Below, piece by piece: positions 53,960 to 60,788 of a DNA stretch of 64,000 nucleotides. Positions within the stretch are counted from its first letter, which is position 1, and each line of letters begins with the position of its first letter. This DNA is from Rahnella laticis (lineage in GTDB: Bacteria; Pseudomonadota; Gammaproteobacteria; Enterobacterales; Enterobacteriaceae). The translations under genes and the position numbers were made by a program. The notes under the pieces are model-generated. The model worked only from the letters and a program-made list of their open reading frames with translations. It was not told the origin of the DNA and made no database searches. The stretch lies in contig NZ_JADOBI010000011.1 in the NCBI RefSeq assembly GCF_015644585.1, positions 1 through 64,000 of the forward strand, read 5' to 3'.

Positions 53960-54022
53960 ATTCGATTTCGATGTATGAAATGCTCAGTTGAATTGTTCGA
54001 TGTAATAAAGCAGTATCACGGA

Positions 54023-54099
<77 letters not shown>

Positions 54100-54172
54100 A
54101 TTCGAGACTGATGCATAACGATGTTCAGTTCGGATTCTGTGATGATGTAAAGCAGTACCAAGTAGTGACGGA

Positions 54173-54249
<77 letters not shown>

Positions 54250-54280
54250 ACTACTTAAACAGTGAATTGAATTAAACAAC

Positions 54281-54305
54281 AAGCACCTTAACGGGTGTTT
54301 TTTTG
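54281..54305 (+). terminator. rho-independent terminator of the tRNA-fMet cluster
   Basis: AGCACC-TTAACG-GGTGTT stem (one G-U pair) followed by TTTTTG, 32 bp after the third tRNA. Confidence 0.8.
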
Positions 54306-54362
54306 TATCCAAATTTCGGGCACAGCCAGGAATGGCGTCATATTCTCACACCATTCCCCCGC

Positions 54363-55841: not shown

Positions 55842-57167
55842 GTGAAGGAACGTAGTACAGAACTGGTTCAGGGATTTCGCCACACAGTTCCCTATATTAA
55901 TGCGCACCGTGGCAAAACGTTCGTGGTCATGCTCGGTGGGGAAGCCATAGAACATGAGAATTTTAGCAATATCGTCAATGATATCGGGCTGTTACACAGT
56001 TTAGGCATTCGTCTGGTGGTGGTTTATGGTGCACGCCCGCAGATTGATGAGAACCTTTCTGAGCACAATTACGAGCCGATTTATCACAAAAATATCCGCG
56101 TGACAGACGCCCGGGCCCTCGAACTGGTGAAGCAGGCAGCGGGTTTGTTGCAGCTTGATATCACCGCGCGGCTTTCCATGAGTCTGAATAATACGCCACT
56201 GCAGGGCGCGCATATCAACGTTGTCAGCGGGAACTTTATCATTGCTCAGCCGCTGGGCGTCGATGACGGTATTGATTACTGCCACAGTGGCCGCATCCGC
56301 CGTATCGATGAAGAAGCCATTCACCGCCAGCTCGACAGTAATGCGATTGTGCTGCTTGGCCCGGTCGCGGTTTCGGTCACAGGTGAAAGCTTCAATCTGA
56401 CGTCAGAAGAGGTCGCGACGCAACTGGCCATTAAGCTTAAAGCCGAGAAAATGATCGGCTTCTGTTCTTCTCAGGGCGTCATCAACGATGAAGGGAATAT
56501 TATCTCTGAGTTGTTCCCTAACGAAGCGCAGGAACGTATCGACCTGATGGAATCGGGTGGAGATTATCTTTCCGGCACCGTCAGGTTCCTGCGTGGTGCG
56601 GTGAAAGCCTGCCGCAGCGGCGTTCGTCGTAGCCATCTGATCAGTTATCAGGAAGATGGCGCACTGGTTCAGGAGCTGTTCTCACGTGACGGTATTGGTA
56701 CGCAAATCGTTATGGAAAGCGCCGAGCAGGTTCGCCGCGCCACCATTAACGATATCGGCGGTATTCTTGAGCTGATCCGCCCGCTGGAGCAACAAGGCAT
56801 TCTGGTTCGCCGCTCACGCGAGCAGCTCGAAATGGAAATTGATAAATTCACCATTATCGAGCGCGATAACCTGACCATTGCCTGCGCCGCGCTTTACCCG
56901 TTCCACGATGAAGGAATTGGCGAAATGGCCTGCGTGGCGGTTCATCCCGATTACCGCAGTTCTTCACGCGGTGAAATGCTGCTACAACGCGTCGCCAGCC
57001 AGGCCAAACAAATGGGTCTGAACCGGTTATTTGTTCTGACGACACGCAGTATTCACTGGTTCCAGGAACGTGGTTTCAAACCTGCGGAAGTTGACGTCCT
57101 GCCGATTCAGAAACAGGAAATGTACAACTACCAGCGCCGGTCTAAGATCCTGATTTCAGATCTCTGA
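55842..57167 (+). CDS. argA: N-acetylglutamate synthase
   Basis: First step of arginine biosynthesis, feedback-inhibited by arginine. The 441-aa protein has an N-terminal amino-acid-kinase domain that binds arginine (about 1-290; V-M-L-G-G-E-A) and a C-terminal GNAT acetyltransferase domain (about 295-430; [13 protein letters not shown]). The start is GTG at 55842, right behind two ARG boxes, so ArgR repression is expected. In E. coli its downstream neighbour is recD; here it is ptrA. Confidence 0.97.
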
Positions 57168-57193
57168 AAATCAGAACCCATAATTCTGAGCAT

Positions 57194-57223
57194 AAAAAAG
57201 GACGCTTTCGCGTCCTTTTGCTT
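57194..57223. terminator. bidirectional terminator between argA and ptrA
   Basis: AAAAAAGGACGC-TTTC-GCGTCCTTTT, symmetric with A/T-runs on both sides, fills the 75-bp gap between convergent argA and ptrA. In E. coli recB and recD lie in this interval. Confidence 0.85.
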
Positions 57224-57242
57224 TTACTGAAGTCTGGAAGTT

Positions 57243-60134
57243 CTATTTGCTGGTCTGCGATTTCAGAGCCTGCTGCAGGGTTGACGTATCCGGCCAGGTT
57301 TTGAAGCCTTCCGGCGCAGCATACTGCGGCGTTTTACTGTCGTTGCCGGAAACCTGAGACAGCATCGCCAGACCATCTTGCGCAATTACAGCCTGATGGA
57401 AATAGTCAGCCAGCTGAGTCTGCGTCAATCCGGCAATCACACGGATCACATTGGCCCGGGTATCAAACTGAGCATTTCCACGGCTGAAGTCATTGCCCAG
57501 ACGATCGGCTTCTTCATCCAGCGTTTGCGGACGTTGCTGCATCTCATTCACCAGCCCCTGCTTATATTGCAGGAATTCATCATCTTTCATTTCCCGCAAA
57601 CGCTTTTCAGCCTGCGGATAAAATGCCAGATAGCGCTGATAGAGATAGTCAGGTTGTTTGCTGTTACTTTGCAGCAGGAAGCCGATACCCCATTGTTTGC
57701 CCACCGGGATCGGGAAGGCAAATACCGCGTATCCCAGCTGTTCCTGCGTACGCAGTTGGCTGTAGAACCACGGCTGAATAATCTGCCCCAGCAGCGCACT
57801 GTAGCCCATACTCTGAACTTCGTCATAACCGCGTGGCACATACACCGCCGCCAGTGCAGAATCTGTACTGGTGCCGGTACGCTGGATATTGGCCTTCATC
57901 GGCTCAGAAACTTCAGCTTGCTTACCGCGCCACCATTCGGTTCCGTGCGCGCCCAGCTTTTGCATAATCTGCTGTGACATCGCCCTGACCTGATCGGCGG
58001 TCATATTACCCACCACCATCACTTCGACGGCGGCATGGTGAATCAGCTGTTCACGGTAATTATTCACGTCATCAAGCGTAATCTGCGCGACTAACTTTTC
58101 ACGCTCGGCGCGTTCGGTATACGGCACACGGGAAAGCAGCTGGATCGGCTGTAACGCCAGTTCGAAAGCTTTGCCTTTATCGGCTGAAGATAAGCGTTCC
58201 AGATACCAGGATTTCGCCTGATCCAGCTGTTCTTGTGTCGGCTTAAAGTTCGGATAGTTATCCACTAATGCCGCCAGCAAATCAGGCAGACATTCAGTAA
58301 AGCCGGTGGCGGTAAATTGCAGGCCATTATCCGGAGACGTCCCGAACGTAATGCCGCCGATGGACGCCTGATAGCTCAGCTGATCAAACGCGACGCCGGT
58401 CAGATAATCCGTCAGGCCGTACAACACCTGATTTTTTGCCGAACTCAGTGCCTCTTCATTACGGAAAGACACCGTGACATTGGCTTTCGGTTCATCGGCG
58501 AAGTACCGGCTCGGCATATAGAAGACACGCAGCCCTTTATCTTCCACCAGCAACTCAGGTTTGGTCGCCGTCGAGTCTTTCGTCACCAGCGCCAGAGAAT
58601 CGGGAATGTACGGGTTCAGCGCTGGCAGCGACAACGTGATGCCCTGCGCCAGCGTTTTCCATTGTTCAAAAGTTTGCGGCGGCACTTTATCAACTTCGTA
58701 AGGTGCATCCATAAAGTAAGCCATTTTGTTGTGCGGTTCATTCGGGCTGATGATCCAGTAGCGCGCATTTTGCGGCGTCATTTCATCCAGACGCGATGCG
58801 ATTGCTTTGGGATCGTACTGATCGGTCAGATACGGTGAATCGAGCACGTGTTCAACCGGAACACGTAGCATGGTATCCACCAGCCACTCTACATAATCCA
58901 TATCGCGGGTTAACGCGGGATACCGGAAATCAAGCGCCATAACATGAGCAATTTCGTCGAAATAAGACTTCTTAATGCCCTGTGTCCGCATTTCGTTGAG
59001 ATAACTGAAAATCGCGGCGATCACTGTGTCACGCTGGGCAAGACCTTTATCCGTCAGGGAAACAGAGATATTAAATACCCCCATATTCCGGTTAACCATC
59101 GGGTCTGCTCCGGCGCTGATCCCGTCTGCGTAACCTTGTTTCTGCAACCAGTCTGACAGCGTATTCGGGCTGCGGTTACCAATCAGATAGCTGATATAGG
59201 TATCTGTTTTACTGCGAAAATCTGCGCTGTTGTTGTCGATAGCAAATTCAATGCGCAATTCTTTGCGTGGCTGCGCGGGAACAAAATGGATAAATTCACC
59301 TTTTTGCTCTGCCGTCACCGTCGGTACGGTAATCGGCGGTACAACGGCATGATGGTTAGTGATCTTTCCGAAAGTATTGGCAGCCAGATCAGCCAGCTCC
59401 GGCAACGGTTTATTGCTGTAGATAACCCCGACCAGCAGATTGGCCGAATAATAGCGGTGATAGAACGCGGTGAGCTGATCGTGAAGTTTGCTACCCGGTT
59501 TATCTTTTAACGTATCGAGATTACCACCGGAATAACGGGCCGCCGGGTGTTCAGGGTTTAACGTTTCGGCCCGAACCTGAGCCATACGCATCCCGTCACG
59601 CGAACGCGCCATGGTCAGTTCGGCATTCACCGCATTACGCTCACGGTCACCGTTAGCCGGGTCCAGCAATGGCTCACCGATGGCGTCCGAAAGGCGATCT
59701 ACGGCTTCAGGCAGGGCATCATTTTCAACTTCCAGATAAAAGGCCGTGCGGTAAGACGCGGTGCTGCCATTATGGCTGCCGCCATGTTTTTTGAGGAATT
59801 CAGAGAGGCTTTCAGGCTGAGGATACTTTTTCGATCCCATCAGAAGCATGTGTTCTGTGTAATGGGCAAGGCCAAGCTGGGAATCAGGGTCTTCCAGCGA
59901 ACCCACGGGAATAGCCAGCGCAGCAAGTGACTTGGGCGCCTGAGGGTCAGAAACCAGCAATACCGTCATATCATTCTCAAGCTTGATCGCCTGATACCGA
60001 CGGGGGTCGTTCTGACTTTTATTAATAGCTTGTGCATAAGGCTGCCAGTTGGCGGCGCTTGCGACTCCAGGGGCCCAAAAGGTCAATAACAACAGTAACC
60101 CGGAAATTCGGGTAACCTGTTTCAACATTGCCAC
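57243..60134 (-). CDS. ptrA: protease III (pitrilysin)
   Basis: Periplasmic inverzincin metalloprotease of the insulin-degrading-enzyme family (M16A), which cleaves small peptides. The 963-aa length equals E. coli PtrA. It has a signal peptide (cleavage near A28), the inverted zinc motif H91-Y-T-E94-H95 and the downstream glutamate in R-E-R-N-A-V-N-A-E-L. The gene is intact. In E. coli it lies inside recC-ptrA-recB-recD; here none of the three rec genes is present, so ptrA stands alone and must have its own promoter. Confidence 0.97.
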   Translation of the reverse strand: MAMLKQVTRISGLLLLLTFWAPGVASAANWQPYAQAINKSQNDPRRYQAIKLENDMTVLLVSDPQAPKSLAALAIPVGSLEDPDSQLGLAHYTEHMLLMGSKKYPQPESLSEFLKKHGGSHNGSTASYRTAFYLEVENDALPEAVDRLSDAIGEPLLDPANGDRERNAVNAELTMARSRDGMRMAQVRAETLNPEHPAARYSGGNLDTLKDKPGSKLHDQLTAFYHRYYSANLLVGVIYSNKPLPELADLAANTFGKITNHHAVVPPITVPTVTAEQKGEFIHFVPAQPRKELRIEFAIDNNSADFRSKTDTYISYLIGNRSPNTLSDWLQKQGYADGISAGADPMVNRNMGVFNISVSLTDKGLAQRDTVIAAIFSYLNEMRTQGIKKSYFDEIAHVMALDFRYPALTRDMDYVEWLVDTMLRVPVEHVLDSPYLTDQYDPKAIASRLDEMTPQNARYWIISPNEPHNKMAYFMDAPYEVDKVPPQTFEQWKTLAQGITLSLPALNPYIPDSLALVTKDSTATKPELLVEDKGLRVFYMPSRYFADEPKANVTVSFRNEEALSSAKNQVLYGLTDYLTGVAFDQLSYQASIGGITFGTSPDNGLQFTATGFTECLPDLLAALVDNYPNFKPTQEQLDQAKSWYLERLSSADKGKAFELALQPIQLLSRVPYTERAEREKLVAQITLDDVNNYREQLIHHAAVEVMVVGNMTADQVRAMSQQIMQKLGAHGTEWWRGKQAEVSEPMKANIQRTGTSTDSALAAVYVPRGYDEVQSMGYSALLGQIIQPWFYSQLRTQEQLGYAVFAFPIPVGKQWGIGFLLQSNSKQPDYLYQRYLAFYPQAEKRLREMKDDEFLQYKQGLVNEMQQRPQTLDEEADRLGNDFSRGNAQFDTRANVIRVIAGLTQTQLADYFHQAVIAQDGLAMLSQVSGNDSKTPQYAAPEGFKTWPDTSTLQQALKSQTSK

Positions 60135-60431
60135 TCTCCCTCAATCGAGTAAATATGCCCGCGGGCACTAAAAATAAACAGTTCAACAACTGATGGATCT
60201 CAACCTGCTGTTTTCTGCTATCAGGTCTGTTCAGACCCCGCAGACGCAGGATAGTTGTCAAAAAAATCGAACCGGGATGAGCAGTCAGGAGCTCCGTCAC
60301 ATTTTGTTCCCGAACCGGGCGTTTCCTCCAGGGGAAAATCACCCTGTTAAACCACTCTAAGCTGTTAGCCCGTCATTGCAAGCGGCTTGAGGGTATTTTC
60401 CCGACTTATTCTGAAGCCGTTCTGCTGCCAT
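60135..60431. other. 297-bp gap between ptrA and ppdC where recC is expected
   Basis: No protein-coding gene is seen. Reading all minus-strand frames by eye I find no stretch resembling either end of RecC. The region has several small inverted repeats (for example GGTCTGTTCAGACC near 60223-60236) and a TTGACA on the minus strand near 60260, which could belong to a ptrA promoter. No insertion sequence or direct repeat that would explain a deletion is visible. Confidence 0.6.
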
Positions 60432-60788
60432 TTAGCCATTCTGTTTGCAGATCAGACGCTGCAAAATTGCCTGATATTTTGCAGGTGACCGGATAACAAT
60501 ATTGACCCGCTGGCATGATTGCCCGAAAGATATCCCCGACAGCTGATATTCCCAGCCTTTCATGACAGTTTCGTGGCTCTGGCCGGTTGCGGCGTAAGCT
60601 TCCAGCTGCGAATGTGCCTCTGACCACGCCTGTTGTACCTGCCACTGACGCATAAAACCATAGGTCAGTGACTGGTAATAATTCAGCAACCCTAAAACAG
60701 ACACCGACAGCAACAGTGCGGCTATCAATGCTTCCGGCAAGCTAAAACCCTGCTGTGAGATATCTTCTTTTCCGGATGCACTAACCAT
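60432..60788 (-). CDS. ppdC: prepilin-peptidase-dependent pseudopilin PpdC
   Basis: Minor type IV pilin-like protein, 118 aa. The class III leader has cleavage after G14 (S-Q-Q-G/F-S-L-P-E-A-L-I-A), with E+5 and a hydrophobic helix. It is last in ppdA-ppdB-ygdB-ppdC and overlaps ygdB by 8 bp. Such minor pilins prime assembly of type IV or competence pili; the E. coli homologs are part of the Sxy/CRP-S regulon. In E. coli recC comes next; here it does not. Confidence 0.85.
   Translation of the reverse strand: MVSASGKEDISQQGFSLPEALIAALLLSVSVLGLLNYYQSLTYGFMRQWQVQQAWSEAHSQLEAYAATGQSHETVMKGWEYQLSGISFGQSCQRVNIVIRSPAKYQAILQRLICKQNG

Follow-up and report, generated by a model that had tools for sequence, protein, structure and literature searches.

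Gene order at the ptrA locus

The stretch of Rahnella laticis DNA analysed here, called the window below, is 64,000 nucleotides long. Its minus strand carries lgt-thyA-ppdA-ppdB-ygdB-ppdC, a spacer of 297 bp and ptrA; after 75 bp argA follows on the plus strand. The locus is made up of the following features:

60432..60788, minus strand: ppdC, left border of the native locus (ORF; E. coli gene order).
60135..60431, no strand: ppdC-ptrA spacer, 297 bp, the former native recC site, with no convincing RecC remnant.
60135..60258, minus strand: deletion scar, that is, the kept recC-ptrA intergenic region or ptrA leader (blastn to L228 from genus g37).
57243..60134, minus strand: ptrA (pitrilysin), intact and left behind (NF011681 1619.7 bits, cut-off 765; in the tree with g37).
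57168..57242, no strand: ptrA-argA spacer, 75 bp, the former native recB-recD site, where relatives have recB-recD.
57196..57219, plus strand: terminator-like hairpin between argA and ptrA, 10 pairs, weak when taken alone.
55842..57167, plus strand: argA, right border of the native locus (ORF; synteny).

Synteny aside, the name argA is our own presumption. The region has 7 terminator-like sites against 3.7 from shuffles, and a promoter scan of it returned one site, below the shuffle number. Elsewhere in the window, an ORF (54016-54312) whose translation contains an internal peptide repeat is probably not a protein gene; we take it to be of the kind that translated tandem tRNA genes give.

E. 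coli K-12 has recC between ppdC and ptrA, and recB after ptrA. The order recC-ptrA-recB was found in all 14 annotated same-family stretches outside Rahnella and genus g109 (L033-L035, L133-L137, L141, L226-L228, L235, L236), and by coordinates RecC adjoins PtrA in 13 genomes of other genera, g109 aside. Gene order is native in g37, g127 and g38, and all three g37 genomes fetched have the native-type recC-ptrA-recB. Among eight stretches from other families of the order, two (L037, L041) have ptrA between recC and recB, and in the other six no ptrA was seen in the vicinity of recC. Since the family stretches have recC-ptrA-recB, recC and recBD are missing here from the place where the family has them. 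The initial annotation had described recC as absent between ppdC and ptrA with 297 bp left, and the ORF ends at 60135-60431 bear this out. It was also right that neither flank of the intact ptrA retains recC or recBD, for which one simple deletion is insufficient.

Part of the left spacer can be traced to the native operon. Positions 60135-60258 align at the DNA level to the recC-ptrA intergenic region of a g37 genome (G049, L228), with 75% identity over 159 bp, 34 of them within ptrA (E 1.5e-23). The match is limited to ~52-58 bp around the ptrA start in the other two g37 genomes, and for the other 173 bp of the spacer the G049 region offered no convincing counterpart. As the 124 bp upstream of ptrA are homologous to intergenic DNA of G049, native recC was removed and the leader kept. 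Native RecC and RecB sequences from near relatives were also used to search the spacers, with composition correction switched off; the matches listed were all short and weak. The best of these (E 0.002, 28 residues, minus strand) enters the ptrA start; it lies in DNA that in g37, the sister genus, is located between genes and is thus not read as a RecC remnant. The initial annotation had seen neither a recognisable RecC fragment nor a transposon scar: the first half of that statement stands, as no convincing remnant was found, and the second is amended by the kept intergenic DNA. This scar and the order in sister genera also contradict its suggestion that ptrA had never been part of the rec operon in the ancestor.

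The ptrA leader is shared by the eight Rahnella rows that are correctly oriented among the 14 spacers; the other six represent the wrong side (minus-strand loci), and the scar in the window rests on its own blastn. PpdC lies within the 1.5-kb ptrA flank in 14 of 14 Rahnella genomes and ArgA in 13. In the exception, G011 (L098:4390-5886), argA was not found after ptrA, and other DNA, perhaps an insertion element, lies past the spacer start. RecC is away from ptrA in all 14 genomes, so the gap at ptrA is no assembly accident.

By DnaE identity, g37 is the nearest genus to Rahnella (95-96%), with g109 at 87-88%. In the PtrA tree (21 rows) Rahnella joins g37 (96/97) and g109 is far off; a grouping of Rahnella with g109 was rejected (p 4.4e-6). 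This placement with g37 indicates that ptrA in Rahnella is the native one. As a separate observation, ptrA is in two pieces in genome G176 (L125, G176:C38:80313-83151), with a TGA in one of them, and the recC frame there is open.

A recCBD operon on another contig

The window's genome holds an intact recC-recB-recD operon on a different contig (C23:140838-150009). The single full recC-family match of this genome (C23:140838-144113) is followed on the same contig by RecB and RecD, and exactly one protein of each kind exceeds the general family cut-offs: RecC with TIGR01450 1102.3 (582.9), RecB with TIGR00609 1061.3 (696.05) and RecD with TIGR01447 571.3 (310.15). The stricter NCBI equivalog cut-offs are missed (NF008289 857.1/1470, NF008128 1062.7/1697, NF008127 584.6/671); these are probably models for the enterobacterial proteins. 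In the relatives sample, 27 of 29 genomes have a recC-family match, all 14 Rahnella included.

Like E. coli RecBCD, the Rahnella complex has the same three subunits with full-length profile matches, and its motifs are intact: GTGKT, DEFQD and DYK in RecB, which we take to be those of helicase and nuclease, and GTGKT and DEAS in RecD, presumably those of the helicase. Rahnella RecC matches chain C of the E. coli structure 1w36. By subunit cut-offs and motifs, the complex is a RecBCD (exodeoxyribonuclease V), with a putative Chi-regulated nuclease and helicase activity. It differs from the enteric enzymes in sequence: RecC of the window's genome shares 35-36% identity with the RecC of two family relatives, which share 60% with each other, other family RecCs are 38-43% identical to Rahnella RecC among the matches listed, and the E. 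coli records of the plasmid collection are at 37%. It also differs in layout. E. coli has ppdC-recC-ptrA-recB, whereas the Rahnella operon is at another locus and has no ptrA inside it, recC-recB and recB-recD each overlapping by 4 bp (ORFs of L027). Measured against the enterobacterial ptrA-linked type, Rahnella thus departs in gene order, in placement outside the enteric clade and in the stricter cut-offs.

The dN/dS of recC, recB and recD is 0.09-0.14 (G000 against two or three other Rahnella), and that of ptrA and argA is 0.01-0.04, rough values given a dS near or above 1. By the former range, the operon is kept under purifying selection. The GC content of recCBD is 59.5-62.4%, against 51-52% in the window and the G003 sample, and is intermediate between these host samples and Variovorax recC (73%).

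At one end the operon borders on presumed MFS and LysR genes, and at its other end on a presumed gene for a NemA-like reductase or a CdiB-like protein. In g37 (L222, L223, L225), homologues of the more distal neighbours form a block that lacks recCBD. The immediate neighbours vary: G000 (L026:4323-15490) has a presumed CdiB/CdiA-like two-partner pair directly upstream of recC, G003 has a CdiB-like gene there, and in G001, G004 and G011 recC comes after the presumed NemA-like reductase, within ~0.9 kb. An unsystematic look recognised no mobile element at the insertion. No close copy of recCBD was found on plasmids (best 55%, plasmid collection) or in phages (best full-length 37%).

Origin of the operon and fate of the native genes

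A RecC locus search for close relatives, which may omit the window's own record, returned 23 loci. Nine are Rahnella, with 87-97% RecC identity. The remaining 14 come from Variovorax, Ramlibacter and a Burkholderiales MAG, at 54-64%, and from Pseudomonas japonica, at 53%. Variovorax, at up to 64%, is the closest named RecC outside Rahnella among them. In a class sample of 369 genomes the best RecC after the own genome reached 58%. The family sample (295 genomes of 154 genera, taken evenly from a larger set) gave some RecC match in 280 genomes, and the 15 lacking one are all <=0.9 Mb in size. Among the matches listed, the Rahnella type occurs in only seven family genomes and two genera, with E=0 and one match each: four Rahnella (88-100%) and three g109 (69%).

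The three g109 genomes (G121, G231, G304) also have ppdC-ptrA-argA without recC or recBD (L127-L129), and their recCBD is elsewhere (L130-L132), with a GC content of 64.6-66% against 56%. In L131 this operon adjoins what we presume to be a dbpA-like helicase gene. A large ORF also lies beside it (L131:14672-18982), which may resemble a type III effector of plant-associated bacteria. Since the neighbours differ between Rahnella and g109, the two operons are at different sites.

In a RecC tree of 76 rows built by a quick method, from which one row of the class sample and three incomplete rows of Burkholderiales were omitted, 26 native enteric rows group together (93) and Rahnella with g109 (100), the latter pair joined to Comamonadaceae (98). 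With a careful method and 39 rows, thinned by hand from the 76 with the longest branches removed, natives, Rahnella plus g109 and Burkholderiales each have 99-100 support. Forcing Rahnella and g109 to group with the native enterics was rejected (dlnL 317, p-AU 1.15e-68), the constrained group having been chosen after the first tree was seen. The RecB tree agrees in placing Rahnella and g109 beside Comamonadaceae. In the RecD tree the natives are again apart, and the order of P. japonica, Comamonadaceae and Rahnella plus g109 is less resolved. Judged by its subunit trees, the Rahnella recCBD is foreign. By RecC and by RecB, its sisters are Variovorax and Ramlibacter, but they belong to another order, and Variovorax recC has 73% GC against 60% in Rahnella. 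With 64% RecC identity at best, the direct donor probably lies outside the sampled set.

The native ortholog is absent, a homolog of another lineage is present and the sister group keeps the native copy, which is the pattern of xenologous displacement. We hold with high confidence that displacement of RecBCD best explains a bare ptrA together with a foreign recCBD, and it has apparently occurred in two lineages, Rahnella and g109. We propose that a compact recC-recB-recD operon of Burkholderiales-like (Comamonadaceae-related) origin entered a Rahnella ancestor at a different chromosomal position, and that this enzyme would have taken over end resection, repair and degradation of linear DNA. 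Native recC and native recB-recD would then have been deleted from the two flanks of ptrA, while ptrA and its leader stayed in place. This order, gain and then loss, is the likely one. To empty both flanks and spare ptrA, at least two events or one complex event would be needed; the two separate losses that the initial annotation had listed fit this scheme, to which a replacement operon can now be added. By homology the foreign RecBCD would do the same job as the native one, and it is presumably the working enzyme of Rahnella. Genus g109 presents the same replacement, with a related operon at another site.

A variant of displacement has a single import followed by transfer of recCBD between Rahnella and g109, instead of two imports. 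The g109 RecC is 69% identical to that of Rahnella, against up to 64% for Variovorax, and the two are sisters with 100/99 support. Yet sites and neighbours differ, each genus is on a long separate stem, and an unsampled donor group fits the same tree. As their RecBCD are sisters and the genera are not (DnaE, PtrA tree), transfer between them and two separate imports stand on the same footing; we consider the single import a real possibility, though a tentative one.

The sister relationship of the two RecBCD would also suit an ancient coexistence, in which the family ancestor had both types, Rahnella and g109 kept one and nearly all others the other. However, this would require losses throughout the other sampled genera, the seven foreign-type genomes have one RecC match each (a few other genomes have second weak matches), the foreign GC is still visible and the two operons are at different sites, so that we give it a very small chance. 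Still less probable is the relocation that the initial annotation had considered, with native recC, recB and recD moved as a unit and ptrA left behind. An operon of the right genes does lie elsewhere in the same genome, but all three of its proteins group apart from the native enterics, a RecC clade with the natives was rejected (p 1.15e-68, as above) and the operon GC is foreign; the unit found off the locus is not the native one. As for true loss, with ends handled by AddAB or RecFOR/RecJ, the empty native site is what it predicts, but the genome-wide search found a complete recCBD in the same genome, the very result that the initial annotation had named as speaking against it, and 13 other Rahnella genomes have RecC of the same type, so that true loss is refuted.

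A 2005 survey (PMC1193525) found, in its available text, little evidence of transfer among recombination genes and named AddAB among proteobacteria as a replacement by horizontal transfer. This is the same kind of event, but an exchange of RecBCD for RecBCD is absent from that text. Among the titles and abstracts listed from open-access papers, no report of such an exchange was found, and the words 'Rahnella' and 'horizontal' do not occur in the main text of PMC8022716.

Chi sites and significance of the exchange

A foreign RecBCD could answer to a different Chi. In Pseudomonas syringae Lz4W, whose genes are written recCBD, Chi is GCTGGCGC according to PMC5959072; P. japonica, of the same genus, has a RecC (53%) in the same broad clade as that of Rahnella. 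In eight aligned Rahnella RecC rows, 11 of 12 reported Chi-recognition residues are identical and T40 is replaced by N. The same source material reports this residue set as conserved in P. syringae, whose Chi differs; residue conservation is thus not diagnostic.

The E. coli Chi, GCTGGTGG, was counted in eight genomes: G003 and G012 have 982 sites each, ~3.1-3.2x the reversed-pattern control, and the other six have 3.1 to 4.1x, so whole-genome counts do not separate Rahnella from these six. Strand bias was counted in one genome per genus (Rahnella 517 kb, with the 64-kb window in addition; g37 398 kb; g109 177 kb), oriented by cumulative GC skew (G003, G193), local skew (G231) and synteny (window). 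Leading to lagging counts of GCTGGTGG are 72:48 in Rahnella (66:47 in 26 stretches of G003 and 6:1 in the window), 58:16 in g37 and 32:13 in g109. The bias is weaker in Rahnella than in g37 (p=0.012), one G003 batch having been added after the first result (52:38 vs 58:16, p=0.007). Against pooled one-mismatch octamers the bias has p=0.33 in Rahnella, p=0.00014 in g37 and p=0.086 in g109, and bootstrap ranges over stretches overlap (0.48-0.73, 0.64-0.89 and 0.56-0.85, respectively). A KOPS-like octamer taken as a check was polar in G003 (55:11) and g37 (64:6), less clear in g109 (14:6) and not polar in the window (2:3). For GCTGGCGC, 86:48 in G003 against 70:52 in g37 is a hint only.

These counts suggest that Chi polarity has decayed in Rahnella. 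Since g109, also displaced, keeps a bias (32:13), a change of Chi is no more than suggested, and g109 speaks against a simple rule. According to part of PMC8022716, no Chi was detected in Yersinia, so weak polarity is no proof of an exchange. It is tempting to speculate, as an idea that we consider rather unlikely, that Rahnella and g109 are natural RecBCD transplants re-tuned or being re-tuned to another Chi (e.g. a GCTGGCGC-like one, as in P. syringae), the repeated exchange having been favoured because phage anti-RecBCD proteins directed against the enteric enzyme would not act on the foreign one.

RecBCD belongs to the housekeeping functions: its three subunits are co-adapted, and the complex responds to the Chi sites of its genome. 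Our results indicate that such a core repair complex can be exchanged as a whole, apparently in two lineages, while ptrA of the old operon survived. They are also a warning that absence of recBCD from the ptrA locus does not mean a recombination-deficient cell. In two living genera, a Chi landscape shaped by one enzyme would now be served by another. This mismatch makes the rate at which Chi over-representation and polarity decay or shift testable, and Rahnella and g109 allow asking whether phage pressure acts on the identity of RecBCD.
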